Part shown: positions 1,059 to 19,292 of the stretch, piece after piece
Numbering within the stretch: the stretch's first letter is position 1
Layout of the letters: every line of letters begins with the position of its first letter
Assembly (NCBI GenBank): GCA_004143605.1
Contig: AWVY01000032.1
Span: 107,761 to 142,465, forward strand
Length of the DNA: 34,705 bases
Direction of reading: 5' to 3'
DNA from: Desulforamulus aquiferis
Lineage (GTDB): Bacteria; Bacillota; Desulfotomaculia; Desulfotomaculales; Desulfotomaculaceae
The notes under the pieces: model-generated
Database searches by the model: none
What the model was told of the DNA's origin: nothing
What the model saw: only the letters and a program-made list of their open reading frames with translations
Position numbers and translations under genes: made by a program

Positions 1059-2598
1059 TTAACCGATAATTTCCGAGGTTATTTTCATCTGCAGGAATAG
1101 CCCCAGATAGTCAAAGCCACCAGCCTTGGAACATGTTCCCGACATATTAAAACCACCAAAGGATGAACACCAACCAGGCTCCTGTACATTTACGGTTAAA
1201 GTACAGATTGCCTACATGGAAATCCTCTTTTGCCTTGACAATATTCTCTCTGCTATTGCTGTAAAGGGAGCCTGTTAAGCCATATTCAGTGTTATTTGCC
1301 ACTTCCAGGGCTTCATTAAAATCGCTAACTTTAATCATAGCTAATACAGGTCCAAAGATCTCTTCTTTAGACAATCTGGCATCAGGCGCAATGTCTCTGA
1401 AATGGTAGGTTTAATAAACCAACCAACCTCTCCCAATCTCTCTCCGCCCATAAGCAGCTTACCTTCTTGCTTGCCAATTTCTATATACTCCAGGATTTTT
1501 CCATGGCTCTCTTTTCAATCACGGGGCCCATATTGTAGTTTTCTTCAGGAGATCCCTGATTTAGCTTTTGTGCCAATGCCACTGCTTTCTCAATTACCTG
1601 TTCATATACACTTTCCACAATAATTGCCCGGGAGCAAGCTGAGCATTTTTGTCCCTGGAAGCCAAAGGCGGAGGCTACAATACCCTGGGCCGCCTTATCC
1701 AGGTCAGCAGTCTCGTCTACAATAATTGAGTCCTTACCACCCATTTCAGCAGCCACCCTCTTAATCCATTTCTGTCCGGGGGCAACCTTTGATGCGAGGC
1801 CACTGATGCGTAGACCAATTTCTTTGGAACCAGTAAAATTAATAAAACGAGTCAGTTTATGGCTTACCAAAAAGTCGCCTATGGCACCGCCAGAACCAGG
1901 CAAGTAATTCACAACTCCACCAGGCAGACCAACCTCCTGCAGTAATTCCATAAACTTTGCTGCAATAATTGGTGTGGTGCTGGCAGGTTTGAGAACCACG
2001 GTATTACCTGTAACCACTGAAGCGACGGTCATGCCGGCCATAATGGCCAAGGGAAATTCCAGGGCGGAATTACCAGGCCAACCCCCAGGGGGATATATTT
2101 CATTTGATTGTACTCACCACTAATGGGAACCAAGGCCGGTGGATTTGCATATCTTAACATTTCGTGGGCGTAAAAATTCATAAAGTCTATGGCTTCAGCT
2201 GTATCTGCATCGGCCTCAGCCCAATTTTTCCCTGACTCTAAAATTAACCAGGCTGAAAAATAATGTTTACGCTGCCTCATTAATTCCGCAGCCTTAAATA
2301 AAAAGATGGCCCTTTCTTCAGGAGAAACCTTTGACCAATAGGCAAAGGTGCTATTGGCAGACTCCATGGCTTTTTCAGCCAAAACAAGATCTGCCTTTGA
2401 AGCAAAACCTATCACTTCATTTTCATTGGCCGGATTGGTGGAGGTTATAACTTCATCGGTATATATGGCTTCCCCACCGATATATAATGGATACTTCTTT
2501 CCCAGTTCCTGTCTTACCTGAGCTAACGCTTCTTTAATTGCAGTGGCATTCTCAGGTAGAGAAAAGTTAGTAAAGGGTTCGTTTGCAAATGCCTTCAT
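1059..2598 (-). CDS. rocA: L-glutamate gamma-semialdehyde (1-pyrroline-5-carboxylate) dehydrogenase
   Basis: This enzyme oxidises P5C/glutamate semialdehyde to glutamate with NAD+, the second step of proline catabolism. It follows the Bacillus RocA pattern from end to end: NEPFTNF at the N-terminus, [13 protein letters not shown], the PPWNFP cofactor loop, [16 protein letters not shown], the general-base region AEMGGKDS, the catalytic cysteine region GQKCSACSR, and a C-terminus with [32 protein letters not shown] and the stop at 1059. The implied length of about 515 residues is normal for RocA. The ATG at 2598 has GGGAGG 6 bases upstream. About five one-base frameshifts break the reading (near 2065, 1500, 1400, 1170 and 1155); the one at 2065 is explained by one C missing from CCCC. 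It sits 59 bases after the flavoprotein gene, with no terminator between, so it is probably the last gene of that operon. Confidence 0.93.
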
Positions 2599-2657: not shown

Positions 2658-3785
2658 CTACATAGAGTTCACCCTGGCAAAACGGGTAAAGTCAAACATA
2701 CTGATAGGCAAGCTGGTTTTTTCACCTAAAATATGCTCGGCCATCAATTTGCCGGTCATGGGGGCAATCATAAATCCATGTCCGGAAAAGCCTGCTGCCA
2801 AGTGGAAACCTTCAACTCCTGGTACACTGCCCAGAATTTGCTGCTTATCAGGTGTCAAATCGTATAAACCGGCCCACTGGCGCACAACCCGCAGGTTAGC
2901 TAGGTGGCAGCAGAAATGTTACCTTGGCAGCCATTTCGTGCAAAAACTGCCAGGTGCCATTATGATATATTCCTTTAATTCATTGGGATCTCCTAGGCCC
3001 ATGATAAAGCTGCCATGGGGTACCTGCTGGCAATAAAGTCCATGATAAAAACTCATCACCATGGGACCCTGCATCATTTCTACCGGCTCGGTCACAAGTA
3101 TTTGGTGCCTTTCCGGGGTAAGGGGTAAATCTATGCCTATGGTCGCTGCCAATTCACGGGAATAGGAACCGGCACAGCAAATAACCGCAGGTGATTCAAT
3201 TACTCCCTTGTTTGTTTCCACACCGCAAATTTTATCCCCTTTTGTAAGGAGCTTAGTGGCCTCGGTGTAGGTTATTATTTCAACCCCAAGCCTTTGGGCC
3301 GCCTGAGCATAGGCATCGGTAGTCTTAAAAGGGTTGCAATGCCCATCCTTAGCACAGAAGGTGGCTCCAAGTAACCCTTGGGTATTTAAGTGGGGTACAA
3401 TTTCTTTGGCCTCTTCAGGTGTCACCCAGCGGGAAGGTATGCCCAGTTGGTGCTGAACCCCCAGATTTTTATGAAACTGCTCCACCATTTTTTCTGTGTA
3501 GGCAAGGAGCAGATAACCCCCCTGCTTAAACTCAATGGAGCCTTCATATTCCAGATCCTCTTCCAAACTTTCAAACATTTCTATGCTATTCTTAGCAAGT
3601 AGGCAGTTGGTCTCTGTTCCAAACTGCATTCTGACCCCGGCGCCACATCTTCCGGTTGCTCCGCTGGTCAGATACTTCTTCTCCAGCAAAACTATGTTTT
3701 TAGCACCCTTTTTAGCCAGGTTATAGGCTATGGCACAGCCAATAACACCGCCACCAATTATCACATAATCTGCCCTTTTAATCAT
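2658..3785 (-). CDS. FAD-dependent amino acid dehydrogenase, DAO/sarcosine-oxidase-beta fold (candidate proline dehydrogenase catalytic subunit)
   Basis: This is a flavoprotein of about 375 residues. It has a Rossmann FAD motif at the very N-terminus (YVIIGGGVIGCAIAYNLA) and the classic DAO-family ending YDLTPDKQQILGSVPG plus AAGFSGHGFMIAPMTGKL. The family includes sarcosine oxidase beta, glycine oxidase, D-amino acid dehydrogenase and the beta subunit of archaeal dye-linked L-proline dehydrogenases. Its gene partners are the usual accessory subunits of multi-subunit versions, and rocA directly downstream points to proline or a related imino acid. The ATG at 3785 is chosen because AGGAGG lies at suitable spacing; a GTG at 3794 is possible. 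The start overlaps the BFD-type gene. Two frameshifts (near 2965 and 2900) interrupt the C-terminal third. The substrate cannot be read from sequence alone. Confidence 0.8.
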
Positions 3786-4065
3786 CTCCTTCACCTCCTG
3801 CCAAAATACCCAGTTTTACTGGTGAAGTAGGCTGGCGAAAGGCGGTAAGGGGAATGTCCTTAACAGCTTTACCTGTAGCCCTGGCCAATTCGTTAACTAT
3901 CAAGGGTGTACAGGTTCTGCCCTGGCAAGGACCCATGCCGACCCGGAGCAATCTTTTAAGCTGCTCCAGGTCGGTGATGCCCTTATCAATATAAGCTCTG
4001 ACTTCATCTAGGGTGATATCTTCACACCTGCAGATAACTGTAAGACTCTCCGAACCCTGGCACAT
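3778..4065 (-). CDS. BFD-type [2Fe-2S] protein, small subunit of amino acid dehydrogenase complex
   Basis: This intact 95-residue protein has a bacterioferritin-associated-ferredoxin-like [2Fe-2S] domain. The four ligands are visible as C12-x-C14 (VICRCEDIT) and C47-x4-C52 (GMGPCQGRTC), the CXC-X32-CX4C spacing of this family. In fused enzymes such as octopine/nopaline or hydroxyproline dehydrogenases, the same domain forms the C-terminus of the alpha chain; here it is a separate gene. It probably relays electrons between the two flavoproteins. It begins 2 bases after the preceding gene's stop and its end overlaps the next start, consistent with co-translation. Confidence 0.85.
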   Translation of the reverse strand: MCQGSESLTVICRCEDITLDEVRAYIDKGITDLEQLKRLLRVGMGPCQGRTCTPLIVNELARATGKAVKDIPLTAFRQPTSPVKLGILAGGEGDD

Positions 4066-4067
4066 AT

Positions 4068-4562
4068 TTACCGCACCTCCTTAACTAAGAAGTGACGGCT
4101 TTCCATCATTAAATTCTTTGGCACTGCCAACCAGACCAGGGCCGTTTTGTCCTGGGCTTTAGTATTTTGTACTTTAACGACCTTAGCGTTTCCCAACTCT
4201 TCCCCAGCTCGATTAACGGCGGTTACAATTTGATTAACCCGTGGCAGGGGTAAAAACTCGTAGGGTATTTTCACTAAAGCTTCACTATCGGAATAGGTAG
4301 CATCCACCACAAATATGGCAAGTCCTGGACAGCGGCTCATACAGGAACCACAGCCATTACATTTATCAAAATCTATTTGTGGACGTTCATTTATATCTGT
4401 AAAGGCTTTAATTGCTCCCCTTTTACAACTGTGGTAGCAGGGATCGCAGGGTATATTTTGAAAGCATTCTGTTATAGCCACCGGACCCTTGGACAGTCGT
4501 TCCTCAGTTGGCATGACCGCTGCAATATCTTCCGGTGTAGGAATGCCGTTTAATGGCAGCAT
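4068..4562 (-). CDS. 4Fe-4S ferredoxin-like subunit of amino acid dehydrogenase complex
   Basis: This intact 164-residue protein carries two cysteine clusters. The first reads CDPCYHSCKRGA and the second reads CNGCGSCMSRCPGLA, the latter a full [4Fe-4S] CxxCxxCxxxCP motif. The first is shorter and may use an additional upstream cysteine (ECFQNIPC). The C-terminal half has no obvious motif. It lies between an HcnB-like flavoprotein and the BFD-type protein. Its likely role is electron transfer out of the dehydrogenase, possibly to ferredoxin or a membrane carrier; this is inference from position and cofactors. Confidence 0.8.
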   Translation of the reverse strand: MLPLNGIPTPEDIAAVMPTEERLSKGPVAITECFQNIPCDPCYHSCKRGAIKAFTDINERPQIDFDKCNGCGSCMSRCPGLAIFVVDATYSDSEALVKIPYEFLPLPRVNQIVTAVNRAGEELGNAKVVKVQNTKAQDKTALVWLAVPKNLMMESRHFLVKEVR

Positions 4563-4580: not shown

Positions 4581-5657
4581 CTATAGAGCGGCCTGGGCTA
4601 GGCCTTTACGGATTTTTTCGCCCACATGACCAGAGCGCAGTGCCTCCAGTTGCTCTAATACATTTGCCCTGTCCTCATTAAGATCAGGACCCGTATAACC
4701 AAGACTGGAGGCTGAGTTAAGTCCTGCCAGGGCACCCTCCATCATAGCTGCTGATGCCTCTTCAATTCCCGCCACATCACCAGCCACATAAATTCCCGGC
4801 ACAGAGGTTTCCAGACCTTCACTACGAAGGGGAACATTCCCTCCCAGTTCCGGCACAAAGGTCATCTTACACCCTGCTTGCCAAAGGATCTCAGTCAATG
4901 GTGTTAGACCCACTGACAGGCAAATCACATCTGCATCTATTAACCGTTCCGTTCCTGGTATCTGCTGCCAATTATCATCCAGTTGAACAATGGTTGCTCC
5001 CGTAACTTCCCTTTCACCATGGGCACACTTAATAGTATGCCTGGTAAATATAGGAACTCCCGCCCGAACAACCTTAGCCGCATGCACCCAATAGGCTCCA
5101 ATTTTAGGCCCTGCCTCAATAATTCCTGCCACTTCGACCCCCGCCTGGAGAAGCTGATAGCTGACAATAACACCTATGTTACCGGCCCCAACCATCAATA
5201 CTCGATTACCAGGCTTGACACCGAAAACATTTACCAAGGTCTGAACGGCCCCAGCACCATAAACGCCAGGCAAATCATTATTGGGGAAAAGTAAAGACTT
5301 TTCTGCACCACCTGTTGCAACAATAAGGCGTTGCGGCTTAATGGTGGTGATTTTACCTTGCTGCTCTACCGCCAGAACACCGTCCTCATAATAACCCAGG
5401 ACAGTAGCCTCAGCCATTACCACTATTTTTTCATTGGCCATTACTTCATCAGATAGCTCCCGGGCTATGTCAATACCCCTTTCCGAGGCACGCTGCTGCT
5501 TAGAACCGAAAAACCTATGGGTTTGTTTAATTAACTGACCTCCTAGATAATCATTACGGTCAATTAAAACTACTCCTGCACCTAGCCTTGCCGCCTTGAT
5601 TGCTGCCGCTAATCCTGCTGGGCCGCCCCCCACAATTGCTATTTCAGTATGTATCAC
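4581..5657 (-). CDS. HcnB/OoxA-like NAD(P)/FAD-dependent oxidoreductase subunit
   Basis: This intact 358-residue flavoprotein has two dinucleotide-binding folds. An N-terminal GGGPAGLAAAIKAARLG binds FAD, a central VLMVGAGNIGVIVSYQL binds NAD(P) or ADP, and a C-terminal IYVAGDVAGIEEASAAMMEG forms the FAD/NADH family signature. It resembles the alpha chain of hydrogen cyanide synthase, opine oxidase and multi-subunit sarcosine or proline dehydrogenases, where it accepts electrons from the catalytic DAO-fold subunit. The GTG start at 5657 lies inside the end of the 2Fe-2S gene (14-bp overlap). It is one of the few long genes here without a frameshift. Confidence 0.87.
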   Translation of the reverse strand: MIHTEIAIVGGGPAGLAAAIKAARLGAGVVLIDRNDYLGGQLIKQTHRFFGSKQQRASERGIDIARELSDEVMANEKIVVMAEATVLGYYEDGVLAVEQQGKITTIKPQRLIVATGGAEKSLLFPNNDLPGVYGAGAVQTLVNVFGVKPGNRVLMVGAGNIGVIVSYQLLQAGVEVAGIIEAGPKIGAYWVHAAKVVRAGVPIFTRHTIKCAHGEREVTGATIVQLDDNWQQIPGTERLIDADVICLSVGLTPLTEILWQAGCKMTFVPELGGNVPLRSEGLETSVPGIYVAGDVAGIEEASAAMMEGALAGLNSASSLGYTGPDLNEDRANVLEQLEALRSGHVGEKIRKGLAQAAL

Positions 5658-5957
5658 TTGAGTTCACCCTTCCCCTTCTGGTCTCAACAACCATACCTTC
5701 AGCCAGGCGTTCTACACAAACCCTGACATTTGGCTCACCGTTTACCACCATCAAACAGGAAGAACAGTTTCCAATATTGCAGAACAATCCCCTGGGGCGA
5801 TGCAGGTGACCGCTCTCCCTCATTATTCTAATCCCGGCAGCATGAAGTGCGGCGCGATGGTCTCACCTTCGAAACCCTCTATTTCTTTGCCATCATAGGT
5901 AAACCTAATTTTATTGCCAGGCTTAAAGTCTAAAATAGGGTGTTTTATTATGCGCAT
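5644..5957 (-). CDS. HcnA-like [2Fe-2S] ferredoxin-fold subunit of amino acid dehydrogenase complex
   Basis: This is a protein of about 104 residues and the first gene of the operon. After a one-base frameshift near 5848 it reads RPRGLFCNIGNCSSCLMVV and then VRVCVERLAEGM. The cysteines C-x4-C-x2-C plus a downstream C match the plant-type [2Fe-2S] domain (Fer2_4) found as HcnA or as the N-terminus of sarcosine oxidase alpha. The ATG at 5957 has a strong GAGGAGG 8 bases upstream, and a -24/-12 promoter lies 30 bases further upstream. The stop overlaps the following flavoprotein gene. It likely carries electrons within the dehydrogenase complex. Confidence 0.82.
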
Positions 5958-5986
5958 AGGAAATACCTCCTCGTTTAATAGTTACT

Positions 5987-6002
5987 TGCAATATTAATGC
6001 CA
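5987..6002 (-). promoter_or_regulatory. Sigma-54 (-24/-12) promoter of the dehydrogenase-rocA operon
   Basis: On the minus strand the sequence is TGGCATTAATATTGCA, matching the RpoN consensus TGGCAY-N5-TTGCA at every defined base, with the right GG-N10-GC spacing. It lies 30 bases upstream of the first gene of the operon. Two sigma-54 activators are encoded nearby, one of them immediately upstream. Confidence 0.88.
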
Positions 6003-6095
6003 TTTTGTCAGTTGATTGCTATGACTGAGGGAATATTCCTTATAAGCCCTTAATACTGTCACATAATATAATATTTTATACCTTGTAGAAACAAC

Positions 6096-6121
6096 AAAAA
6101 CACGTCTTTAGACGTGTTTTT
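6096..6121 (-). terminator. Intrinsic terminator after the CBS-PAS sigma-54 regulator
   Basis: A perfect 11-bp stem, AAAAACACGTC with GACGTGTTTTT around a TTTA loop, lies 95 bases after the regulator's stop. It carries a T-run on the minus strand. It isolates the dehydrogenase operon, which therefore needs its own promoter. The A/T-rich stem could work in both directions. Confidence 0.8.
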
Positions 6122-6131
6122 GTTTATACTT

Positions 6132-6171
6132 GACGTTCAACATATTGTACAACGTGTCATATTATTGACAC
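6132..6171. promoter_or_regulatory. Candidate upstream activator (enhancer) sites for the sigma-54 promoter
   Basis: The stretch holds GTGTCA-N6-TGACAC (6154-6171) next to a looser dyad with TGACGTT (6131-6137) and AACGTGTCA (6151-6159). It lies 130-185 bases upstream of the -24/-12 element, the usual distance for bacterial enhancer-binding proteins. Which of the two encoded regulators binds is not known. Confidence 0.5.
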
Positions 6172-6216
6172 TCCACAAAATGTATCAAAAATTAATAATG
6201 TCCTTGACATTACCCC

Positions 6217-7942
6217 TTACATTATCCCTAGCTGATGCATTTTATAATATAGTGTACTCCTTGGTATACCCAGCATTCTTGCAGCCTCAGAGCGATTACC
6301 ATTTACTTGTTTTAATGTTCTTACAATCAAATCCCGCTCTGTTTGCTCTGTCACCGAGGCAAGTCCAATGGTAGTTCCTATCTGATCCTGTTGACTTGTT
6401 ACCCTAAGGGAATCAGGTATGGCACTTTCTGGAACTGTATCACCCTCTGACAATATCACCATCCGCTCTATGACATTCTTAAGCTGCCTGATATTTCCTG
6501 GCCAAGAATAGGATAAAAAGGTGGCCATAACCCCTGGTTCCAACTTGGTGATTTGTTTATTATACAGTTGGCTGAATTCCTGCAGGAATAGATACACCAA
6601 CTCAGGAATGTCTTCTCTTCTTTCCCTCAAGGGAGGCAGCTCCAAGGATACTACATTGAGGCGATAATATAAATCCTCTCTAAACTCTCCTTTATTGATC
6701 ATTTCTTCTAAATAACGGTTTGTTGCAGCGATTAAGCGTACATCTACCTTGACAGGCACAGAACCCCCTACCCTGAAAAATATCCCGTCCTGAATTACCC
6801 GAAGAAGTTTAACCTGCATTTCAGGGGGAAGCTCACCTATCTCATCTAAAAATAATGTTCCGCCATCGGATAGTTCAAATATTCCCTGCTTACCCCTTTT
6901 ATCGGCACCTGTGAAGGCACCACCTTCATAGCCAAACATTTCGCTTTCAAAAAGACTTCTTGGTATAGCTGCACAGTTTATTACATTAAAAGGCTTTTCA
7001 TTTCTGGTGCTAGTTTGGTGGATGGCCTTAGCCACCAGCTCTTTACCAGTACCGCTTTCACCCCTGATTAGTACTGCTGCGTTGGTGGTTGCCACCTTTC
7101 TGGCGACATTAATCACTTCCATTAGGCGCCTATGATGCCCTTTAATTGATGCGAAGGGATTTCTGTCGGCAGTAAATTGAATAATCTCCTGCTCTAGCCT
7201 CTGAACCTGATAACTGGCCTGGCTAAGCTTCTGATTTAATTGAACAATTTCTGTAACATCCCTTCGGCCGAAACCCCACCAATAATTTTGGGCCCCAGCC
7301 TTACTGGTGTTGCGTTGATCAAGACATGAGTTCCCTCCACCGGTTGGTGGGGGAGGGATCTTATTTCCTGCCACTCCCTATTGATTCTAGTTATAACCAG
7401 ATTAGAGAAATATTGATTTATTGGCTTACCCAAGATATCGGTGGCTTTAATACCATATAGCGATTCCGCCTGCTATTCCAGGCCAGCACTGTATCATTAG
7501 CATCTACAATACAGATGGCCTCATCCACCGTTTCAACCACTGCATTTAACCTGGCATCGGCCTCGCAAACCTTTAAGGTTAAATCATGGAATACCTGATC
7601 ATAGGAGAGAACACCAAGAACCTTCCCTTCTTTATTGCGGCATACCAATGCATGATACCGCAGCTCAGGAAGGAAGGTTAATATTTCACGGTCTAAATCT
7701 TCTTCATCCAATGATGAAAAATCTCGCCGCATAATTTTACTAACCTTAACATCAGATTCTAAATTGCGATTGATAACTTCTTTCCAAAGCAGAACCCCGA
7801 TAAGTCTGTCCTCTTCTGTAATCAACACCACGGGGCGATTAGGAATACCCTTTTCCCTTACTTCACCAATGGTACTGTTAGGACCGACGGGCAGGAGATC
7901 CCTGTATAACATTTCCTTAACAGTTAGAAATCCCTTATGCAT
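6217..7942 (-). CDS. Sigma-54-dependent regulator, CBS-PAS-AAA+-Fis HTH (PrdR-like)
   Basis: This enhancer-binding protein activates sigma-54 RNA polymerase. The domains in order are a CBS pair (about residues 5-125), a PAS domain (about 135-245), the AAA+ domain and a Fis-type HTH. The AAA+ part shows Walker A GESGTGKE, the sigma-54 contact loop GAFTGA, Walker B GGTLFLDEIGE and the arginine-containing [13 protein letters not shown]. The HTH reads [20 protein letters not shown]. The ATG at 7942 follows GTGGAGATAT at good spacing. Two frameshifts, near 7470 (a G missing) and 7262 (an A missing), split it; the joined protein is about 575 residues. The layout resembles PrdR, the proline-responsive activator of Clostridioides. 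It lies just upstream of the sigma-54 operon and is the best candidate for its activator, sensing an amino acid or nucleotide through CBS/PAS. Confidence 0.9.
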
Positions 7943-8034
7943 ATATCTCCACCCCAGTATCCACAAAAATATTTTAGTTTAAAAGCTTCCAGCTTGTTTA
8001 AGAGAAAGATTTTTGCTTTGTATTTATTATAATC

Positions 8035-8060
8035 AAAAAGTAGGAATACTCCTACTTTTT
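8035..8060 (-). terminator. Intrinsic terminator after the second liv operon
   Basis: A perfect 11-bp stem, AAAAAGTAGGA with TCCTACTTTTT around a 4-base loop, lies 14 bases after the livF stop at 8075. A T-run follows on the minus strand. The downstream regulator gene should therefore have its own promoter in 7943-8034, which I could not place with confidence. Confidence 0.85.
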
Positions 8061-8074
8061 GTTGATACTTTTCA

Positions 8075-8782
8075 TTATTCACCTAGATAGGCCTTTTGAA
8101 CCTCAGGATCCTTTGCTAAATCAGAAGCCTGACCTGCTAGTACTACTTCTCCTGTTTCTAAAACATAAGCCCTACTGGCAATAGACAGAGCCATGTGTGC
8201 GTTTTGTTCCACCAGCAGGATAGTAGTGCCAGCCTGATTTATCTCCTTAATAATGGAGAAGATTTCTTGAACCAGCATGGGTGCCAGCCCCATGGAAGGC
8301 TCGTCCATTAGCAGAACCGTAGGTTGTGACATTAAGGCTCTACCCATGGCCAGCATTTGTTGTTCTCCACCAGATAGTGTCCCAGCTAACTGTGCCTTTC
8401 TTTCCTCTAACCTCGGGAATCGTGCAAATACCTTTTTAATGTCTGCCTTGACATTTGCTTTATCATTACGAATATAAGCACCCATTTCAAGGTTTTCTAA
8501 TACGGTCATTCTGGTAAATACACGTCTTCCCTCTGGAACTTGAGAGATCCCTTGACTTACTATTTGATGGGGGGGCATTTTTATTAACGATTTCCCTTTA
8601 TAGGTTATGTCACCTGATATAGGTCTTATTAGTCCTGATATTGTCCGCAAGGTGGTTGTTTTGCCAGCACCATTGGCACCAATTAAAGCGACAATTTCAC
8701 CTTCTTTAACACCGCAAGAAACCCCTTTGAGGGCACGGATGGCACCGTAGGAGACATGCAGATCCTTTACCTCAAGCAGCAC
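8075..8782 (-). CDS. livF: Branched-chain-type amino acid ABC transporter ATPase LivF (copy 2)
   Basis: This intact 235-residue ATPase is one of the two nucleotide-binding subunits of a HAAT-family importer. It shows Walker A GANGAGKTT, the Q-loop region QVPEGRRVF typical of LivF, the signature LSGGEQQM and Walker B VLLMDEPSMGL followed by the H-loop region. The GTG start at 8782 lies only 3 bases after the livG stop. It ends with AYLGE, the usual LivF/LivG tail. Substrates are amino acids of the Leu/Ile/Val type in known members; proline or other substrates cannot be excluded. Confidence 0.93.
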   Translation of the reverse strand: MLLEVKDLHVSYGAIRALKGVSCGVKEGEIVALIGANGAGKTTTLRTISGLIRPISGDITYKGKSLIKMPPHQIVSQGISQVPEGRRVFTRMTVLENLEMGAYIRNDKANVKADIKKVFARFPRLEERKAQLAGTLSGGEQQMLAMGRALMSQPTVLLMDEPSMGLAPMLVQEIFSIIKEINQAGTTILLVEQNAHMALSIASRAYVLETGEVVLAGQASDLAKDPEVQKAYLGE

Positions 8783-8785
8783 GGC

Positions 8786-9553
8786 TTAAACCACTTCCTT
8801 TCCCAAATATGCAGCAATTACTGCGGGATTTTTTTTGATTTCCGCCGGGGTGCCTGAGGCAATCTTTTTGCCGTAATCCAATACAGCAATGCGGTCGGAT
8901 AAACTCATAACGAATTTCATATCATGCTCAACAAGGAATATGGTAAGATCCATTGACTTTATTTTATTGATCATACTCATAAGTGTCTGCTTTTCTTGGG
9001 GGTTCATACCTGCAGCTGGCTCATCCAATAAAATTAATTTAGGATTTGTTGCCAATGCTCTAGCAATTTCCAATCTCCGTTGTTCCCCGTAGGGTAAGTT
9101 TTTTGCCAATTCATCCTTTTTATGGCCAAGCTCCATAACTTCCAAGGCATTAAGTGAAGCTTCGACAATAGCCTTCTCTTCTGCCTTGACACCTGGACTT
9201 CTTAATATTGCACCTATAAAATTCGCCTTTGTACGGCAGTGCTGACCTATCATTACATTTTCCAACACTGTCATATCGCCAAACAATCTAATATTTTGAA
9301 AGGTCCTGGCAATTCCCATTTCTGTTATCAAATGGGGTTTTAGTCCATTTATTTTCTGTCCTAGGAATCTTATTTCCCCCGATGTGAGGGTAAATTCCGG
9401 TAATTAGGTTGAAAATGGTACTCTTCCCAGCACCATTAGGACCAATTAGTGCACGTATGGTTCCTTCCTGGATATTTAAGTTAACACTATCAACCGCAGT
9501 AAGTCCCCCGAAGCGATGGTGACATTGTCCATTTCCAATATTGTTGTTGACAT
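8786..9553 (-). CDS. livG: Branched-chain-type amino acid ABC transporter ATPase LivG (copy 2)
   Basis: This is the second ATPase of the importer. The ATG at 9553 follows GGAGGTGTAAT. The N-terminus reads [13 protein letters not shown], then in another frame [11 protein letters not shown] and Walker [19 protein letters not shown], then [16 protein letters not shown]. The LivG signature [15 protein letters not shown], Walker [14 protein letters not shown] and a C-terminal AAYLGKEVV are all present. Frameshifts near 9510 and 9385 break the first third; together the pieces give about 255 residues, the normal LivG length. The RBS lies directly behind the livM stop, implying coupling. Confidence 0.9.
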
Positions 9554-9565
9554 ATTACACCTCCA

Positions 9566-10465
9566 TCAGTTGGACCCGCCAGCAGCGGTGGAATCAGTTT
9601 TTTCTATCTTATTTTTAGCAAAAAGCCTGCTAAGCTTAACTCCACCCAGTAAACCCCTGGGTCGTACTATCATCATAATAACCATCAGCAGGCCATAAAC
9701 CATCATACGATAATCGGCTATGAAACGTAAAAACTCTGGAGCCAGGGCAAGGATTGTGGTACCAAGTATAACGCCTGGTATACTTCCTAGCCCGCCTAAT
9801 ACAATAAAGGTTAAAAATTCGAAGGATTTACTAAAGCCAAAATCAGATGGGTTCAAATATTGTAGTAAGTGGGCATAAAGTCCCCCGCTTAAACCAGCTA
9901 AAAAGGAACCTATGGCAAAGGCAGTAATTTTACTAGTGGTAATATTAACGCCCATGGCTTCGGCCGCAATTTCATCCTCACGGATAGCAATTAACGACCG
10001 CCCAAAGCGAGAATTTTCAATGCGATACATGGCCCAAACAACTAATGCCACCAATATTACAACAATAGTTAATGTTGTTGTTCTAGGTATGCCAGCCATA
10101 CCCAAAGCACCGCCAGTAATACTCATGTTTAAAAAGACAACCCTGACAATTTCACCGAATCCTAAAGTAGCAATACCTAAATAATCCCCGGTCAATCTTA
10201 GGGTAGGATATCCCAGTAATATTCCCCAAAACGCGGCCATTAGGCCACCTGCTATTAAAGCCACTCCAAAGGGCATGTTCAACCTTAAGCTAAATATGGC
10301 AGCAGTATAAGCACCAATACTGATAAAGGCAGCATGCCCAAATGATAATTGGCCGGTAACACCTGTAATCAAATTTAGCCCCAGGGCAGCAATAATATAG
10401 ATACCCAGCATAGTTAATACCTGGATATAGTAGTCGTTTAAAAATGAGCTGAAAATAATATCCAT
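9566..10465 (-). CDS. livM: Branched-chain-type amino acid ABC transporter permease LivM (copy 2)
   Basis: This intact 299-residue integral membrane protein has about 8-9 hydrophobic segments. The LivM hallmarks are visible: GLNLITGVTGQLSFGHAAF near the N-terminus, RLTGDYLGIATLGFGEI in the middle, the cytoplasmic loop RFGRSLIAIREDEIAAEAMG that contacts the ATPases, and a C-terminal VRPRGLLGG followed by a charged tail. The ATG at 10465 lies 9 bases after the livH stop. Confidence 0.93.
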   Translation of the reverse strand: MDIIFSSFLNDYYIQVLTMLGIYIIAALGLNLITGVTGQLSFGHAAFISIGAYTAAIFSLRLNMPFGVALIAGGLMAAFWGILLGYPTLRLTGDYLGIATLGFGEIVRVVFLNMSITGGALGMAGIPRTTTLTIVVILVALVVWAMYRIENSRFGRSLIAIREDEIAAEAMGVNITTSKITAFAIGSFLAGLSGGLYAHLLQYLNPSDFGFSKSFEFLTFIVLGGLGSIPGVILGTTILALAPEFLRFIADYRMMVYGLLMVIMMIVRPRGLLGGVKLSRLFAKNKIEKTDSTAAGGSN

Positions 10466-10474
10466 GGCTATAAC

Positions 10475-11345
10475 CTACACTTTCCTTTGGATTGGTCGTC
10501 CCAGCAACCCTGTTGGACGGAAAAGTAATACAATAATTAATAGGGTAAAGGCAATGGCATCTTTATATAGGTCAAAGCCCGCGGCAATTCCCAAGGTTTC
10601 CGCTACACCCAGGAACAATCCTCCCAGCATAGCTCCAGGAATACTGCCGATACCACCAAGCACCGCAGCACAAAATGCCTTCAGACCAGCTGAAACCCCC
10701 ATAAAGGGTGATACGGCGTTAAAATAAATCCCTACCAGCACACCACCCGCTGCAGCAAGGGATGACCCTATGGCAAAGGTAAAGGATATAACACGGTTAA
10801 CGTTTATACCATAAGAGCTGCCGTGTCGTAATCTTCAGAAGCAGCCCGCATGGCCTTGCCTATCTTTACATATTTTACGATGAAGTTTAATGCAAGCATC
10901 AACGTGCTGGCAACTATCAAAATAATAATTTGAACCTTGGTAATTTCTATAGGACCAACTTTATAAATTGCATCCGCAATAACAGGAGGAAAACCCACTG
11001 GCTGTGGCCCTTGGATTTTCGTCATCAGTGTTTGAATAAATATCGAAACTCCAATCGCTGAGATCAAAGGTGCCAAGCGAGTAGACCTTCGCAAAGGACG
11101 GTAGGCTACCTTCTCTATGGTTACACCCAAAATCATACAAGCCATCATGGCAGCAAATAATGAAACGATCAAGTCTTGCTGAAATACTGTAACCATCAGC
11201 ACCCCGACGAAGGCCCTATCATGTAAATTTCTCCGTGGGCAAAGTTAATTAATTGGATAATACCGTACACCATGGTATAACCTAAAGCAATAAGGGCATA
11301 GGTAGCCCCAAGGGTTATTCCATTTAGTATCTGTTGCGACAGCAT
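10475..11345 (-). CDS. livH: Branched-chain-type amino acid ABC transporter permease LivH (copy 2)
   Basis: This is the first permease of the importer. The N-terminus reads LNGITLGATYALIALGYTMV and then INFAHGEIYMIG, both LivH hallmarks. After a frameshift (near 11212, one G missing from GGGG) it continues GVTIEKVAYRPLRRS and ends GKAMRAASEDYDTAALM. After a second shift near 10804 it reads GIYFNAVSPFMG and AVLGGIGSIPGAMLGG. The full length is about 290 residues. The ATG at 11345 has AAGGATG 8 bases upstream. A 107-bp gap separates it from livJ. Confidence 0.9.
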
Positions 11346-11452
11346 AAGAAAACATCCTTCCTGCGGGGGATTAACAAGTAAACATGGTTAGCAGCCATTA
11401 CGGTTCATATCGCAATGGCTGCGACCATGTGATTCCTATCTAGCTAACTTAA

Positions 11453-12647
11453 TTACTTAACGTCTGCAGTGTCCTTAAGCTCAAATTTTCCATCTTTAAC
11501 TTCCAGAATATAAACTGGGCTCTTAATGGGCTCGCGATTTTCCTGGAAGGTAATGGTTCCGGAAACACCTTCCCAATCACTGGTCTTGGCTAATTCTGCA
11601 CGGAAGCTTTCTGGAACATCGCTGTTAGCAGCGGTGATTGCATCAGCAATCAGCATAACTGCATCATAACCCTGGGCAGAGAACATATCGGGAGAACACC
11701 GTTATTACCGGCTTTGTAGGCTTCGATAAATTTCTTGGTCTTTTCTCCTGCTCTGGCTTCGTCAGCAGCAAATCCTGCATAAAGCATGCTGCCTTCAACT
11801 GACTCGCCGCCCATCTTCATAAATACGTCAGATAGCAGGCCGTCGCCGCCGATCATCAGAGCTTCCATACCCTGCTTACGGGCTTCCTTCATAATCAGGC
11901 CACCCTCGGTGTAGTAGCCGGTGAAGACAATACCATCGGGATTCTTACCTTTAATAGCAGTAATCTGGGCGGCAAAGTTCTGGTCGCGTCCTGGATGCTC
12001 TGCTCAGCAACTATTTCAACACCATTGGCAGTTAATGCATCTTTGAAGAGCTTGGATAAGCCAACACTATAGTCATTGTTCATGGAGGTGATTACTGCAA
12101 CATTTTTCCAACCAAGCTGCTCCTTTAAGTACTTGGTAACTGCAGGTGCAGCAACTGCATCCAGCAGGGTGTCACGGAAGATATAATCGCCAATTTCAAC
12201 AACGCCGGTACCTACGGCTCCAGCAGACATTAATACTACCTTGTTTTGCTGGGCAATGGGTGCAGCCAATTTAGTAATACCTGTTGTGGGGTCACCCACG
12301 ATAGCAACTACTTTATCACGGGTAATAAGCTTCTGTGTTACTGTTGCGCCCTCAGACAGCTTGCTACCATGATCTTCTTCAATAATTTCAATCTTTTTGC
12401 CTAACAGACCACCGGCATTATTAATATCTTCAGCGGCCATTTTCATGCCCTTAAGGGTTTCCACACCGTAAGCAGCGTGTCCACCAGTCTTAGCACCCAG
12501 GAAACCAATCTTAATGGTTTCTGTTGCAGCTGGAGTTTTATCTTCACCATTTTCTTTCTTTTCTTCTCCGCCGCCACCACAGCCCACAGCTAACATAGCT
12601 ACAATTACCAGCATGGTGACTAATGACCAAAGCTTACCTTTTTTCAT
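11453..12647 (-). CDS. Amino acid ABC transporter substrate-binding lipoprotein LivJ-like (copy 2)
   Basis: This is the extracytoplasmic binding protein (peripla_BP_6 family) of the importer. A lipoprotein signal reads MKKGKLWSLVTMLVIVAMLA ending at the lipobox VGC, with the modified cysteine at 23. The mature part begins with TIKIGFLGAKTGGHAAYG and contains GKKIEIIEEDHGS, VVAIVGDPTTGITKLAAP and AQGYDAVMLIADAI, as in LivJ. Frameshifts near 11995, 11885 and 11690 cut it into three frames; the joined length is about 397 residues. The start at 12647 is chosen from the signal peptide; the GGGAGG motif is 13 bases upstream, further than usual. The ligand is not identifiable by eye. Confidence 0.88.
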
Positions 12648-12739
12648 TTCTTTTTCTTTACCTCCCACCGTATTATTCACTAAATAGTTAATATTCGACC
12701 TTGAGTGCCTGCTCACCTCCCGATCTTGATAAAAATTAA

Positions 12740-14490
12740 TTATCCTTTTGCAGGAATTCCTAGCTGCCTAAGTTTATAATATAGTGTGCTTCTAGGTATA
12801 CCAAGCACTCTAGCAGCTTCTGAACGATTACCCCGTACCTGCTGTAAAGTTTTGATAATTAGTTGCTTTTCTGCTTCCACTGCCACATCAATCAGCTTAC
12901 CCTGAGCCGCAGGGGCAGTAACCAGGGAAATGTAGGTGTTTCTTCTAAGATTCTCAGGTAGTGACTGTTCATCAATAATATCACCCTCGGTTAACACCAC
13001 CAGTCGTTCAACGGCATTCTTTAATTCACGGATATTTCCGGGCCAAGAATAGTCTAAAAAGGAAGTCATAACCGAAGGCTCTATCTTAACCACCGATTTT
13101 CCGTATTTTTGGCAAAATTCCTGCACAAAAAGATGCACCAGTTCCGGAATGTCTTCCCGCCTTTCCCTCAGCGGAGGTATTTCCAAGGTTACAACATTTA
13201 ATCTGTAATACAGATCCTCCCTAAATTGTCTTCGACTAATCATGGATTCTAAGTCCCGGTGTGTAGCTGCCAATACCCTTACGTTAACCTGAACCGACTC
13301 AGAGCCTCCAACCCGGTAATAGCTTCCTTCCTGCAGTACCCTGAGTAGTTTTACCTGCATTTCCAGGGGCATTTCTCCAATTTCATCAAGGAATATTGTG
13401 CCGCCATTAGCCAACTCAAACATGCCCGGTTTCCCTTTACGGTCTGCCCCGGTAAAGGCTCCACTCTCATAACCAAACAATTCACTCTCAAAGAGGTTGT
13501 TGGGAATGGCCCCACAGTTTACAACAATGAATGGCCGTAGATGCCTTGTACTGTTTTGATGAATAGCCCTGGCAAATAATTCTTTCCCTGTGCCACTTTC
13601 CCCCCTCAGGAGGACTGTTGCATCCGTTGAGCTAACCTTTTTCCCAAAGTTAATTAAATTTTGTATGGCCAGACTGCGACCTGTTAATTTTCTAAAAGCA
13701 CAATCCTGACCTGACATTTTTCTGATTTCTTGCTCCAAAAGCTTGACCTGGGAACTGGCCTTGGATAACTCCTGATTAAGTTGAACTACTTCTGTAATAT
13801 CCTTTTCTACCGACACTCCGCCAAGAATGCCATCGGCAGCTGCAACAGGCCCTGAGTTAATCAATACATGGGTTCCATCACAGGGTTGATGATAGTGACC
13901 CCTGAGTTCCTTATTTTCATGCATACAATTGGTAATTCGTATATTCGAGAAGAAATCTTCAATCCGTCCCGAAAGAATTTCTTCAGACTTAACCCCATAT
14001 AGTTCTTCTGCCTTAGAATTCCAGATCACTACCTTGTGTCCTAGATCAATACCGCAAACACTTTCATTCACCAGATTCAAAACACTGTCTAAATATGACC
14101 TTACCTTAACAAATTCCTGGTGCATTAATGCTGCTGCCGCTAGAGGGTCGACGATACCTAAAGGCTGATCATTTTGTCCGGTTACCACCGGAACAGAATC
14201 CTGAGTCAAAGTCCATTTCTCAAACAGTTCAGAAACAGGTGTTTCCGCCGCAAAATAAATAGCTGGTCTCCTAGCTACAGAGACAATTGATAAACTGTCA
14301 TCAGAAGCTCCCGCAAGATCTGCAGGAAGGATGACACTATGTTCATTTTCTTTTTTATCAATAGTCCTCCCAGTAACCCAGATTGCAGTAATCGCTGTCC
14401 ATCTTGGACGGAAATAGAGTGGTCAACTTCCTGGACAGGTAGGCTGTATAATTCATTGGCACTGGGGTAGAACTTATGATACCTACCCAT
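12740..14490 (-). CDS. Sigma-54-dependent regulator, CBS-like-PAS-AAA+-Fis HTH (second PrdR-like copy)
   Basis: This is the second enhancer-binding activator, about 580 residues and a paralogue of the one at 6217-7942. The AAA+ core shows [15 protein letters not shown], the GAFTGA loop, [11 protein letters not shown] and [13 protein letters not shown]; the HTH reads [24 protein letters not shown] domain precedes it ([19 protein letters not shown]). The N-terminal 150 residues look like a diverged CBS pair (for example [18 protein letters not shown]). A single frameshift near 14355 splits the N-terminus. The ATG at 14490 is the first plausible start in the joined frame, with a weak RBS. It sits between the two liv operons, 93 bases before livJ copy 2, with no terminator seen, so it may run into that operon. 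Confidence 0.88.
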
Positions 14491-14534
14491 AAAGGATCAC
14501 ATCCAAATAATTTATTTATTGACAAACAGTTCAA

Positions 14535-14603
14535 CAACATTCATTAAAATTCCTGCAATATGTTTTGAATGTTGAAATAAATATTTGAACATGGTTTGTT
14601 CAA
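14535..14603. promoter_or_regulatory. Inverted repeats upstream of the second regulator gene
   Basis: Two dyads are visible: CAACATTC (14535-14542) with GAATGTTG (14567-14574), an 8-bp perfect pair, and TTGAAC-N7-GTTCAA (14585-14603), a compact 6-bp pair. They lie 45-113 bases upstream of the gene and could be an autoregulatory operator. Confidence 0.4.
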
Positions 14604-14633
14604 TTAATCGACATGGTACATATAGCTAGCATT

Positions 14634-14678
14634 ATAAAAAGGCCTCCCAAGGAACTATTAGATTTTCGATGGGAGGTC
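14634..14678 (-). terminator. Intrinsic terminator after the first liv operon
   Basis: A 9-bp stem (GGCCTCCCA at 14641-14649 with TGGGAGGTC at 14670-14678, one wobble pair) is followed on the minus strand by TTTTT. It lies about 30 bases after the livF copy 1 stop. Confidence 0.8.
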
Positions 14679-14708
14679 AGTGAATATCATTTTTTTACCC
14701 TTTGCGCT

Positions 14709-15412
14709 TTAACCGCCAAGATATGCCTTCTTAACTTCGGGAGATTCCAAAAGCTCTTTGGCATCTCCGGCTAAAACTATTCGGCCAGTCTCTACTACAT
14801 AGCCTTGTGGGCAATGGATAGAGCCATTTTTGCATTCTGCTCTACCAGCAATATGGTGGTTCCCTGTTCATTCAATTCCTTAATTATAGAAAATATCTCT
14901 TTAACTAAAATAGGTGACAGACCCATAGAAGGCTCGTCCAACAGCAGCAGCCTTGGTTTAGACATTAGGGCTCGTCCCATGGCCAGCATTTGCTGCTCAC
15001 CACCAGAAAGACTTCCGGCCAATTGGTTTTTCCTCTCCAGCAGCCTGGGAAACCTTTTATAAACCCTTTCCATACTCTCTGCTACTTCTTTTTTATCCTT
15101 CTTCAAATAGGCTCCCAATTCTAAATTTTCATAGATGGGCATGTTGGCAAATATTCTTCTGCCTTCAGGAACCTGGGTTAATCCCCTTTTTACAATTTCC
15201 TGGGTGGCAACACCTGTAATGTCCTTGTCTTCAAAGTAGACCTTGCCTGTCTTCGGCTTGATTAAGCCACAAATGGTGTTTAGGGTGGTTGTTTTCCCTG
15301 CGCCGTTAGCTCCAATTAGTGTTACAATTTTCCCTTGAGGTACCTCCAGCGAAATACCTTTGATTGCATGAATAGCTCCGTAATAAACATGTATATCATC
15401 AACTTTTAGCAT
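14709..15412 (-). CDS. livF: Branched-chain-type amino acid ABC transporter ATPase LivF (copy 1)
   Basis: This ATPase of about 234 residues shows Walker A GANGAGKTT, TQVPEGRRIF, signature LSGGEQQM and Walker B LLLLDEPSMGL. After a frameshift near 14803 (one T missing) the protein continues YVVETGRIVLAGDAKELL and ends AYLGG. The ATG shares one base with the livG stop (TAATG). It is clearly paralogous to the livF at 8075-8782 but well diverged, so the duplication is not recent. Confidence 0.92.
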
Positions 15413-16177
15413 TAGGAGGCCTCCTCTCCCAGATATGCTTCAATAACCCTTGGGTTATTTCTGATATCATCCGGGGTTCCTACAGCAATAATTTGACCAT
15501 AGTCTAGTACATAGATTTTTTCACAGACACCCATAACCAGAGACATATCATGTTCAATTAACAGGATGGTCAGGCCAAACTCATGTCTAATCCATCGAAT
15601 AAGCTCCATTAAATCATGGGTTTCTTGGGGATTCATACCGGCTGCAGGTTCATCTAATAGCAGAACCGGGGCTGAGTGGCCATGGCCCTGGCAATTTCAA
15701 GACGCTCTGTTCACCGTAGGGTAAGTTTTTAGCTAATCCTTCAGCCTTATTATCCAGCTTGAAAATCTTTAGCAATTCCATAGATTTGTCATGCATTTCT
15801 TTTTCACCGGAATAAAATCCAGGTAGTCTTGCGATGGCCCCAAGCAAACCATATTTGGCGTGACTATGGTACGCTATTTTTAAATTGTCAATAACTGTTA
15901 GATCAGAAAATAAGCGAATGTTTTGGAAGGTCCGGGCCACCCCCCGGTGGTTGATCTGATAAGGTTTTAATCCTACCAAAGACTTTCCGTCAAGCAAAAT
16001 ATCTCCTGACGTTGGTAAGTAAACCCCGGTTAGCATATTAAAAGCTGTTGTCTTGCCAGCACCGTTAGGTCCGATTAAACCGGCCAAATCGCCCTGTTCA
16101 AGGGAAAGGTTTAAATCGGATACAGCCTTTAAACCACCGAAAGATATGGATAAATTATTGACCGACAGCAGAGCCAT
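15412..16177 (-). CDS. livG: Branched-chain-type amino acid ABC transporter ATPase LivG (copy 1)
   Basis: The domains are in order: Walker [19 protein letters not shown], the LivG region [20 protein letters not shown], signature LPYGEQ then [13 protein letters not shown], Walker [17 protein letters not shown] and the H-loop [12 protein letters not shown]. Two frameshifts near 15705 and 15665 interrupt the signature to Walker B segment. The complete protein is about 255 residues. The ATG lies within the tail of livM if the livM frameshift is corrected. Confidence 0.9.
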
Positions 16178-17128
16178 GTTGTTTACCCTCCTTATCTTTC
16201 GATTTCTTTCTAAACATTTTTAAGCTAAACTCCTTGGTCCCCATTAAGCCTGTGGCCTAAACAACATAATGACGATAAGCAGTAGTGCGTAAATCACCAA
16301 ACGTAACGCAGCAAGGCTCTGCAAGGAAGCAGACAAGATGGTCAAGCCAACGGCTGCAATAATAGAACCTGTAATACTTCCCTGACCTCCCAATACAACC
16401 ATAACTAATATATCAAAGGACTTAAGGAAGTTGAAGGTATTAGGCTGAATGGTGTAAAAATAGTGGGCGTGCAGACCACCTGCCAGACCAGCAAAGAATG
16501 ACCCGATAACAAAGGCCATAACCTTATACTTTGTGGTATTAATGCCCATGGCCTCTGCGGCAATTTCATTTTCCCTAATAGAAATAGTTGCTCTACCGTG
16601 GGTGGAGTTAACAAAGTTAGCAATAACAATAACAGTTAATACAGTTAACGCGAAAATCCAAGTCCAGTTAGCTAATTTTGGGATGCCAGAAAGGCCATAG
16701 GCACCTCCGATATAATCAATGTTAACGATCATACCTCTAATAATTTCACCGAAGCCAAGAGTAGCAATGGCTAAATAATCTCCCCGCAGACGAAGAGTAG
16801 GCAATCCAACCAACAAGCCAAAGATACCAGCTAAAACTGCTCCGAATAACAGTGCTATGGCAAAGGGTAGTTGGGCCTTAAGGGTAATGATAGCTGCACC
16901 GTAGGCACCCACCGCCATAAAACCAGCGTGACCGATGGAAAATTGACCATTGAAGCCGTTAATCAAGTTCAAACTAACTGCCAGGATAATATTAATTCCA
17001 ATAAGAATTAGGTTCAACTCATAAAAGGGGTTTAAAATGCCGGTTTTAAGCATAAATTCTACAACGCCCCAGAAGGCTACCAGCAAAAGTAAAATGCCAA
17101 ATTGTTTACCGAGCTTCCGTTCAAACAC
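16155..17128 (-). CDS. livM: Branched-chain-type amino acid ABC transporter permease LivM (copy 1)
   Basis: This membrane permease shows SLNLINGFNGQFSIGHAGF, RLRGDYLAIATLGFGEI and the ATPase-contact loop STHGRATISIRENEIAAEAMG. The open frame stops at 16244 right after FRPQA. If one G is restored near 16249 (GG to GGG), the reading continues GLMGTKEFSLKMFRKKS with a charged tail to 16155, overlapping livG by 23 bases. Copy 2 has a comparable C-terminal extension, so I take the longer form. The start is a GTG at 17128. Length about 323 residues in the long form, 294 in the short. Confidence 0.88.
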
Positions 17129-17138
17129 CGGACATCAC

Positions 17139-18020
17139 CTACACTTTCTCCCGGATGTTCTTACCGAACAGTCCGGCGGGCTTGACTATGAGGATAATGA
17201 TCAGGATTATAAAGGCAACCGGGTCACGATACAGTGACTTTCCATAACCACTTACCATTGCCTCAACAATACCCAGTAAGAATCCACCAGTCATAGCTCC
17301 TGGAATGATGCCGATACCGCCTAATACTGCGGCAACAAAAGCCTTCAAACCTGGCATGATACCCATAAGCGGGTTGATGGCATTGTAATAAATACCTACC
17401 AGAACACCTGCAGCGGCTGCTAGGGAAGAACCGATGGCAAAGGTAGCTGAAATTGTGTTGTTTACATTGATACCCATTAATTGGGCCGCCTGCTTATCAT
17501 GGGACACCGCTCTCATGGCTTTACCAATCATTGTTTTGTGCACAATATATTGAAGCAATAGCATAAGTGCAATGGTTACCACAAGAATGATTACCTGCCT
17601 GTTTGTTACGGTAATACTGCCAAACAGCTTCCACTGAACCTCAGTCAATACCTGGGGAAAGGTCCTAACCTGCGGACCTACCAGAAGCATCATACCATAT
17701 CCAAGAAACAGTGAAACACCGATAGCAGTAATAAGTGCTGCAATTCTTGGAGCCATACGCAAAGGCTTATAGGCCAGCTTTTCAATTGTCACACCAAGGC
17801 AGGCACAAACAAACATGGACATGAGCAGTGCCGGTAGGAAAGACCAACCTAGAATGGCTGTGGCAAAAAATCCAAGATACGCACCAACCATATAGACATC
17901 CCCGTGGGCAAAGTTAATAAGCTGCACAATACCATAAACCATGGTGTAGCCTAGGGCAATTAGAGCATAAATGCTCCCTAGGGAAACTCCGTTAATTAAT
18001 TGTTGTAGAAATACTTCCAT
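17139..18020 (-). CDS. livH: Branched-chain-type amino acid ABC transporter permease LivH (copy 1)
   Basis: This intact permease of 293 residues reads MEVFLQQLINGVSLGSIYAL at the N-terminus, then INFAHGDVYMVGAYLG, the loop GKAMRAVSHDKQAAQLMGI, and AVLGGIGIIPGAMTGG near the C-terminus. The ATG at 18020 is preferred over an upstream in-frame start at 18044 because it aligns with copy 2, although the RBS is weak. It follows a strong hairpin in the livJ-livH gap. Confidence 0.92.
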   Translation of the reverse strand: MEVFLQQLINGVSLGSIYALIALGYTMVYGIVQLINFAHGDVYMVGAYLGFFATAILGWSFLPALLMSMFVCACLGVTIEKLAYKPLRMAPRIAALITAIGVSLFLGYGMMLLVGPQVRTFPQVLTEVQWKLFGSITVTNRQVIILVVTIALMLLLQYIVHKTMIGKAMRAVSHDKQAAQLMGINVNNTISATFAIGSSLAAAAGVLVGIYYNAINPLMGIMPGLKAFVAAVLGGIGIIPGAMTGGFLLGIVEAMVSGYGKSLYRDPVAFIILIIILIVKPAGLFGKNIREKV

Positions 18021-18060
18021 GACTTCCAAAGAGGGCCACCCCAATCAGATGATTTAAAAT

Positions 18061-18092
18061 ACCGTGAAAGGGGGAAGCCCCCTTTCAACGGT
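18061..18092 (-). terminator. Intercistronic hairpin between livJ and livH (copy 1), partial terminator
   Basis: ACCGT-GAAAGGGGG pairs with CCCCCTTTC-ACGGT around an AAG loop with one bulged A, giving about 14 bp. A short T-run follows on the minus strand. It lies 22 bases after the livJ stop and inside the transporter operon, so it likely lowers readthrough or protects the 3' end of the binding-protein message. Confidence 0.7.
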
Positions 18093-18113
18093 GTTAACTG
18101 GTAACTTTAAATA

Positions 18114-19292
18114 CTAGGGATTAACGTAGGTCTTGTAAACCTGCTTGCCATCTACCATTTCAAGGATAGCAGCACCCTTGATTGGGTTGTGGTTAGCATC
18201 CAGGGACAGTTTGCCGGTTACAGCTTGAACGTCCTTGGTGGCAGCCAGGGCTTCCTTGATTTTTTCAGGAGTGCCATCGCCGGAGTTCTTGATAGCTTCT
18301 ACAATCAGAACAGCAGCATCATAACCAAGAGCAGCCATGGAATCAGGAGTTTCGCCATACTTGCCCTTATATTTCTCAACAAAGGCTACTACGTTGGGGT
18401 CATCCTGTTCGGAGGAGTAGTGGTTGCTGAAGAAGGTTCCGGCTAGAGCAGCAGGACCAGCGATTTCAGCCAATTTGGGGGAATCCCAGCCGTCGCCGCC
18501 CAGGAAGGGAACATCAATGCCAAGTTCACGACCCTGCTTAACGATTTTACCAACTTGCTCATAGTAACCAGGCAGGTAGATAACATCTGTTCATACCTTT
18601 AATTTTGGTCAGAGTAGCTTTGAAATCCTGGTCTTCAGGAACATAAGCTTCTCTACCTACAATGGTGCCGCCTTGCTTAACAAAGGATTCTTCAAAGAAC
18701 TGGGCCAGACCCTTGGAATAAGGGGACTGGTTGTCTACATAAATTACAGCAGTTTTCGCTTGCAGATCCTGTATGGAGAAGTTAGCCATTACAGTACCCT
18801 GGAAGGGATCGATGAAGCAGGCACGGAATATATAGTCACGTACTGCTTTGGTATTGGGGTCAACAGTTACATCAGGGTTAGTAGCAGAGCTGGAAAGTAC
18901 AGGGATTTTATTGTCAGCAGCAACCTGGATATAGCCCAGGGTATTACCGGAAGTGGTTGCGCCAAGGATTGCTACTACTTGTCCTGGGTGATCAAACGGG
19001 TTGCTACGTTAGCAGACTCGGTTGCGTCGGATTTGTTGTCAAGGGTAACAAACTTGATTTGCTTGTCAAGTACGCCACCGGCAGCGTTTACTTCTTCAAA
19101 ATACAACTTAGCACCGTTAACCGCAGCGGTACCAAAGGTAGCAACGTTACCGCTCATTTCAAAGTTTCCACCAATTACGATTTCTTTTGCATCAGCAGCT
19201 TTTTGCTCTCCGCCGCCGCCACAACCGGTTACTAAACCGGCCAGCATGACCAAGGCTACAAAAACGGCCAGTAGACGATAATTCTTTCTCAT
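18114..19292 (-). CDS. Amino acid ABC transporter substrate-binding lipoprotein LivJ-like (copy 1)
   Basis: This is a peripla_BP_6-type binding protein of about 392 residues. The signal peptide reads MRKNYRLLAVFVALVMLAGL and ends at the lipobox VTGC (Cys24). The mature protein includes EIVIGGNFEMSGNVATFG, LDKQIKFVTLDNKSD, then FRACFIDPFQGTVMANF and ALGYDAAVLIVEAIKNSGDG. Frameshifts lie near 18983 (one A missing) and 18590. The ATG at 19292 has a near-perfect GAGGAGG 7 bases upstream; upstream in-frame starts lack both RBS and signal. It heads the operon after a leader of about 310 bases. Confidence 0.9.

Follow-up and report, generated by a model that had tools for sequence, protein, structure and literature searches.

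The window analysed here, a stretch of 34,705 nt from Desulforamulus aquiferis, carries an operon predicted to oxidise proline (or a close analogue), which is very probably driven by a sigma-54 promoter, with the adjacent activator acting on paired dyads upstream of it. A sigma-54 switch over oxidative amino-acid catabolism had been proposed in an earlier note on this DNA, and for an oxidative, proline-type operon it is supported by comparison with related genomes, which have kept the predicted promoter, the enhancer, the activator and the operon as a set. The new element, in the literature covered, is the combination of a PrdR-related activator and a predicted multi-subunit proline dehydrogenase, whilst other cases of oxidative amino-acid catabolism under sigma-54 are already known. 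For a regulator family familiar from the reduction of proline, the locus offers a concrete oxidative branch, represented in sulphate reducers and other anaerobes.

The promoter, TGGCATTAATATTGCA, lies on the minus strand at 5987-6002, 29 nt upstream of the ATG of the first gene (5957-5955), and both sequence and position agree with the near-perfect match that had been claimed. It has the GG of the -24 element and the GC of the -12 element at the right spacing, differs from TGGCAC-N5-TTGCW at one position (the common T for C) and is the sole exact match to TGGCA-N6-TTGCA in the 34.7-kb window, with 0.21 expected from shuffling. At two mismatches the window holds 19 matches to the sigma-54 consensus against 21 expected, and as this is no excess the near-exact match alone is informative. 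Transcription is predicted to start near 5976. Across the genome TGGCAY-N5-TTGCW is found at 16 sites, compared with one for a reversed control pattern, and four of the 16 are directly 3' of an activator gene on the same strand. Three further sites with this layout, close behind activator genes and in the same orientation, are found in G000 at C17:1272, C21:133128 and C52:37394. The rpoN gene, on whose presence the proposed switch had been made to depend, is found in the genome, split by indels in the assembly.

Table 1. Predicted features of the window that bear on the control and function of the operon.
Feature	Position	Strand	Remarks
L-glutamate gamma-semialdehyde (P5C) dehydrogenase	1060..2598	-	broken by indels
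Beta subunit, FAD-dependent (DAO family)	2658..3794	-	frameshift near 2919
BFD-like 2Fe-2S subunit	3778..4065	-	
4Fe-4S ferredoxin-like subunit	4068..4562	-	
Alpha subunit, FAD/NAD-type oxidoreductase (soxA-like)	4581..5657	-	
First operon gene, 2Fe-2S (Fer2_4) subunit	5644..5957	-	one frameshift near 5855
Ribosome-binding site GAGGAGG of first gene	5966..5972	-	from sequence; conserved in alignment
Sigma-54 -24/-12 promoter TGGCATTAATATTGCA	5987..6002	-	from sequence; same place in congeners; 27/29 activator-linked loci
Terminator hairpin of activator gene	6093..6124	-	perfect 15-nt arms; -18.3 kcal/mol, z -7; also in congeners
Candidate enhancer site B, TGTACA-N6-TGAACG	6134..6151	-	from sequence; in relatives TGTACA-N6-TATACA (TGT-N12-ACA)
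Candidate enhancer site A, perfect dyad GTGTCA-N6-TGACAC (TGT-N10-ACA)	6154..6171	-	from sequence; architecture conserved in relatives
PrdR-like activator: CBS, PAS, AAA+ with GAFTGA, Fis-type HTH	6217..7942	-	in three frames via indels; orthologue intact in D. putei
Second PrdR-like activator	12740..14209	-	between two branched-chain-amino-acid-type ABC transporters; possible second enhancer binder

Conservation of the promoter was assessed in a sample of 106 non-redundant loci from the Clostridia and a few other groups. Where the activator is immediately upstream the promoter is found with at most one mismatch in 27 of 29 loci (shuffle mean 0.46, maximum 4), it is present in 7 of the 25 loci where the activator is elsewhere and in 8 of the 52 that have no activator, counts which overstate the number of events given the shared ancestry of the loci, so that the 27 are not independent. 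In the activator-linked loci it is usually 42-62 bp ahead of the first gene. Most columns of the intergenic alignment have diverged, with the -24/-12 box, the ribosome-binding site and the enhancer half-sites being kept; a single promoter mismatch is seen in D. putei and in one other relative. The block that runs livF, activator, intergenic region, Fer2, alpha, 4Fe-4S, BFD and beta is found in all eight congeners (8/8) and in one further member of the family.

The operon encodes a predicted five-gene dehydrogenase that is closest to an archaeal L-proline dehydrogenase, followed by a P5C dehydrogenase. The closest solved relative of the D. putei beta subunit is 1y56_B, at 308 bits compared with 172 bits to sarcosine oxidase beta, and 1y56_B belongs to the FAD/FMN/ATP L-proline dehydrogenase complex of P. 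horikoshii (Tsuge et al. 2005, as cited in PMC1949818). For the alpha subunit sarcosine oxidase is a slightly closer match than 1y56_A, and dehydrogenases of sarcosine, hydroxyproline and opines belong to the same superfamily, the substrate here being assigned by homology. The substrate would seem rather unlikely to be a different cyclic or N-methyl amino acid such as hydroxyproline, sarcosine or pipecolate; the beta subunit does belong to the soxB/DAO superfamily, and the sox locus of B. thuringiensis, which has related subunits, is needed for growth on sarcosine and not on proline (PMC4941409), but L-proline dehydrogenase is the closest solved relative of beta by a wide margin, P5C dehydrogenase adjoins the operon in the window and in 14 relative loci, and proA-proB are downstream in Geosporobacter and, by sequence, in Anaerosolibacter. 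The enzyme is probably a dehydrogenase of proline or a close analogue. Past the P5C dehydrogenase, and beyond a further possible hairpin, the open frames encode, by sequence, a 2-oxoacid:acceptor oxidoreductase, so that about 1060 is the probable end of the regulated unit.

One-base indels, of which the assembly as a whole has many, interrupt the genes for the activator, the first operon subunit, the beta subunit and the P5C dehydrogenase. Since rpoN, gapA and pgk are cut by similar indels in the same assembly, and the activator and dehydrogenase genes are intact in all congeners, these are probably assembly errors and not decay; a truly frameshifted pseudogene operon was considered on the same evidence and thought unlikely.

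Paired candidate activator sites are found upstream of the promoter at looping distance. Dyads had been placed at 6132-6171, and whilst they are real their boundaries needed to be redrawn as site A (6154-6171) and site B (6134-6151), with 20 bp between their centres, which lie some 145-165 bp away from the promoter. The core of site A, TGTCA-N6-TGACA at 6155-6170, is perfect, the second half of site B is weak in the D. aquiferis genome, and in relatives the paired sites approximate TGTCA-N6-TGACA-N3-TGTACA-N6-TATACA. Both predicted dyads fit the TGT-N10-12-ACA class published for PrdR, a class of enhancer that PrdR shares with fourteen other activator groups (Nie et al., PMC6615313). Between activator and promoter the 29 loci contain 55 such sites, against 10.9 +/- 3.2 in shuffles, with at least one site in 25 of the 29. 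A 19-nt direct repeat (74%) between promoter and enhancer was set aside as chance similarity.

The gene immediately upstream had been read as encoding a CBS-PAS-AAA+ activator with a GAFTGA loop, and all of these domains were found, together with a Fis-type HTH; the D. putei orthologue is intact at 575 aa with the same domains and motif. Most probably dimers of this activator would occupy both of the adjacent dyads at 6134-6171, loop some 150 bp over the terminator of the activator gene and, once the CBS/PAS part has sensed a signal, open the sigma-54 RNA polymerase by means of ATP and the GAFTGA loop. Transcription would begin about 12 nt past the -24/-12 promoter at 5987-6002. In the predicted pathway the five-gene flavin and iron-sulphur dehydrogenase would form P5C from proline or a close analogue, and the P5C dehydrogenase would take this on to glutamate. 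The CBS/PAS part may sense proline or a redox or energy signal, proline or P5C being the natural guess.

It is distinctly unlikely that the second PrdR-like activator of the window, alone or together with the adjacent one, drives the promoter from these dyads. The recognition helices of the two activators are near-identical (IPRSTLYYK), the two enhancer sites differ slightly in type, other members of the genus have kept the second activator gene, and no sigma-54 site with two or fewer mismatches was found ahead of the transporter genes that adjoin it; however, presence of the promoter tracks the adjacent activator far beyond the genus, and activators usually control the neighbouring promoter (PMC4428206). 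From 8075 to 19334 the window shows one arrangement twice in tandem, a set of genes for a branched-chain-type ABC transporter and after it a PrdR-like activator gene, and the second activator is kept near the first in congeners.

The terminator hairpin of the adjacent activator gene was missed by a generic terminator scan because of the rules of that scan, and was revealed by folding and by a repeat search. It is placed between the enhancer and the promoter, which gives the order activator stop, enhancer, terminator, promoter. That an upstream sigma-A promoter supplies the transcription, with the -24/-12 match being decorative, is hardly credible, as the sigma-70-like matches at 6188-6144 on the minus strand are separated from the operon by this strong hairpin and are to be expected in an AT-rich region (mean 2.2 in shuffles), whereas the -24/-12 box is conserved amid diverged surrounding DNA. 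In the intergenic region between activator and first gene of G005 (L068) the enhancer palindrome and the terminator stem are apparently one inverted repeat, followed by a T run. An Rfam search of 5000-9000 gave no match, and thus no known riboswitch is reported in that interval.

The relationship of the adjacent activator to PrdR was assessed with the NCBIfam profile NF041552, for which the curated cut-off is 795 bits. The D. putei activator aligns to positions 5-575 of the 577 in the profile and has the CBS-PAS-AAA+-HTH architecture, but with 604.6 bits it is below the cut-off; the pieces of the window activator score 53, 44.7 and 458.8 bits. A maximum-likelihood tree, built without the PrdR of C. 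difficile itself, places the activator in a clade of 23 rows (support 100/98) apart from the PrdR-like clade of Geosporobacter and Alkaliphilus. The adjacent activator is therefore classed as PrdR-like, and not as PrdR, by both the curated cut-off and the tree. No prdA, and hence no proline-reductase target, was found in the D. aquiferis genome or its eight congeners (G000-G009), and with a regulator that is PrdR-like this makes the oxidative use of the predicted activator well supported by comparison.

In Geosporobacter ferrireducens a PrdR of 889 bits adjoins prdA, and a second copy, of 780 bits, adjoins the dehydrogenase operon. Copies adjoining the dehydrogenase operon are also found in Alkaliphilus peptidifermentans (789 bits, PrdR-like) and in Alkaliphilus serpentinus (805 bits, above the cut-off), in neither of which prdA was found. 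The linkage of these proteins both to prdA and to the dehydrogenase operon suggests that the PrdR family serves both directions of proline metabolism. Given this result the automatic label PrdR may be misleading in A. serpentinus, and more generally genes that are automatically named PrdR may adjoin oxidative operons. The proteins over the cut-off include G153:C43:23330-25057 (A. serpentinus) and G152:C15:92618-94342 (A. carboniphilus), both apparently copies beside the oxidative operon.

Each component of the system has parallels. PrdR/sigma-54 control of prd in C. difficile and other Clostridiales shares the CBS-PAS-AAA+-HTH activator, the TGT-N10-12-ACA motif, the sigma-54 promoter and the link to proline, but here the target is oxidative, prdA is absent in the genus and the regulator (605 bits, below 795) is in a separate clade. 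RocR/SigL control of rocABC, rocDEF and rocG in B. subtilis similarly combines sigma-54 and a PAS-type activator for oxidative amino-acid catabolism, including P5C dehydrogenase (PMC4941409 for RocR); both activator family and operon are different, with proline oxidation here predicted to proceed by a multi-subunit iron-sulphur flavoenzyme. The SoxR/sigma-54 sox locus of B. thuringiensis (PMC4941409) has an adjacent PAS activator and a related multi-subunit flavoenzyme, but sarcosine is its demonstrated substrate and the sox operons are divergent around the activator. The archaeal multi-subunit dye-linked L-proline dehydrogenase of P. horikoshii (PDB 1Y56) provides the closest solved relative of beta; in the window alpha, 2Fe-2S, 4Fe-4S and BFD are separate genes and the proline activity is predicted.

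In B. thuringiensis SoxR, GabR and BkdR all represent sigma-54 control with a neighbouring activator for oxidative amino-acid use (PMC4428206, PMC4941409), and both proline dehydrogenase and P5C dehydrogenase are among the sigma-54-controlled groups that a 2025 survey gives for Bacilli (PMC12316311). The control by RocR and SoxR being already established, the "opposite use" of a PrdR-like regulator, as the earlier note had described it, holds as regards oxidative use, by comparison and with prdA absent, and is otherwise a variation within known control. In a literature search that took in few subscription journals, no paper was found that paired PrdR with proline dehydrogenase or proline dehydrogenase with aldehyde:ferredoxin oxidoreductase.

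The expectation of a dehydrogenase-rocA operon is correct for the window, where P5C dehydrogenase is next after beta, but this gene is not a fixed part of the operon: of the 9 Desulforamulus-genus genomes examined, only 2 have "rocA" behind the operon. In the 88 loci whose downstream sequence was long enough, the slot that follows beta holds P5C dehydrogenase in 14 and aldehyde:ferredoxin oxidoreductase in 41, with no locus having both. In D. putei (100% complete) the best match to a P5C dehydrogenase model is only 22 bits, and in G011 (99% complete) no P5C dehydrogenase was found; both genomes carry aldehyde:ferredoxin oxidoreductase in the slot. We infer that this enzyme may oxidise glutamate semialdehyde in place of P5C dehydrogenase, and a likely replacement by a ferredoxin-linked enzyme would alter the energy yield of proline oxidation. 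An example of the alternative occupant is at L067 9397-11373, the counterpart slot in the window being 1060-2598.

There is about an even chance that the PrdR family is a general proline switch of the Clostridia, with reductive (prd) and oxidative outputs on separate paralogues, and that aldehyde:ferredoxin oxidoreductase commonly replaces P5C dehydrogenase in the oxidative branch, passing the low-potential electrons of glutamate semialdehyde to ferredoxin. The proline dehydrogenase cluster of Geosporobacter (L129 13470-15065) has proA and proB close behind its aldehyde:ferredoxin oxidoreductase, and judging by sequence the same placement is found in Anaerosolibacter (the equivalent in L136). 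A reverse, ATP-yielding use of such a Geosporobacter-type proA/proB cluster is conceivable.
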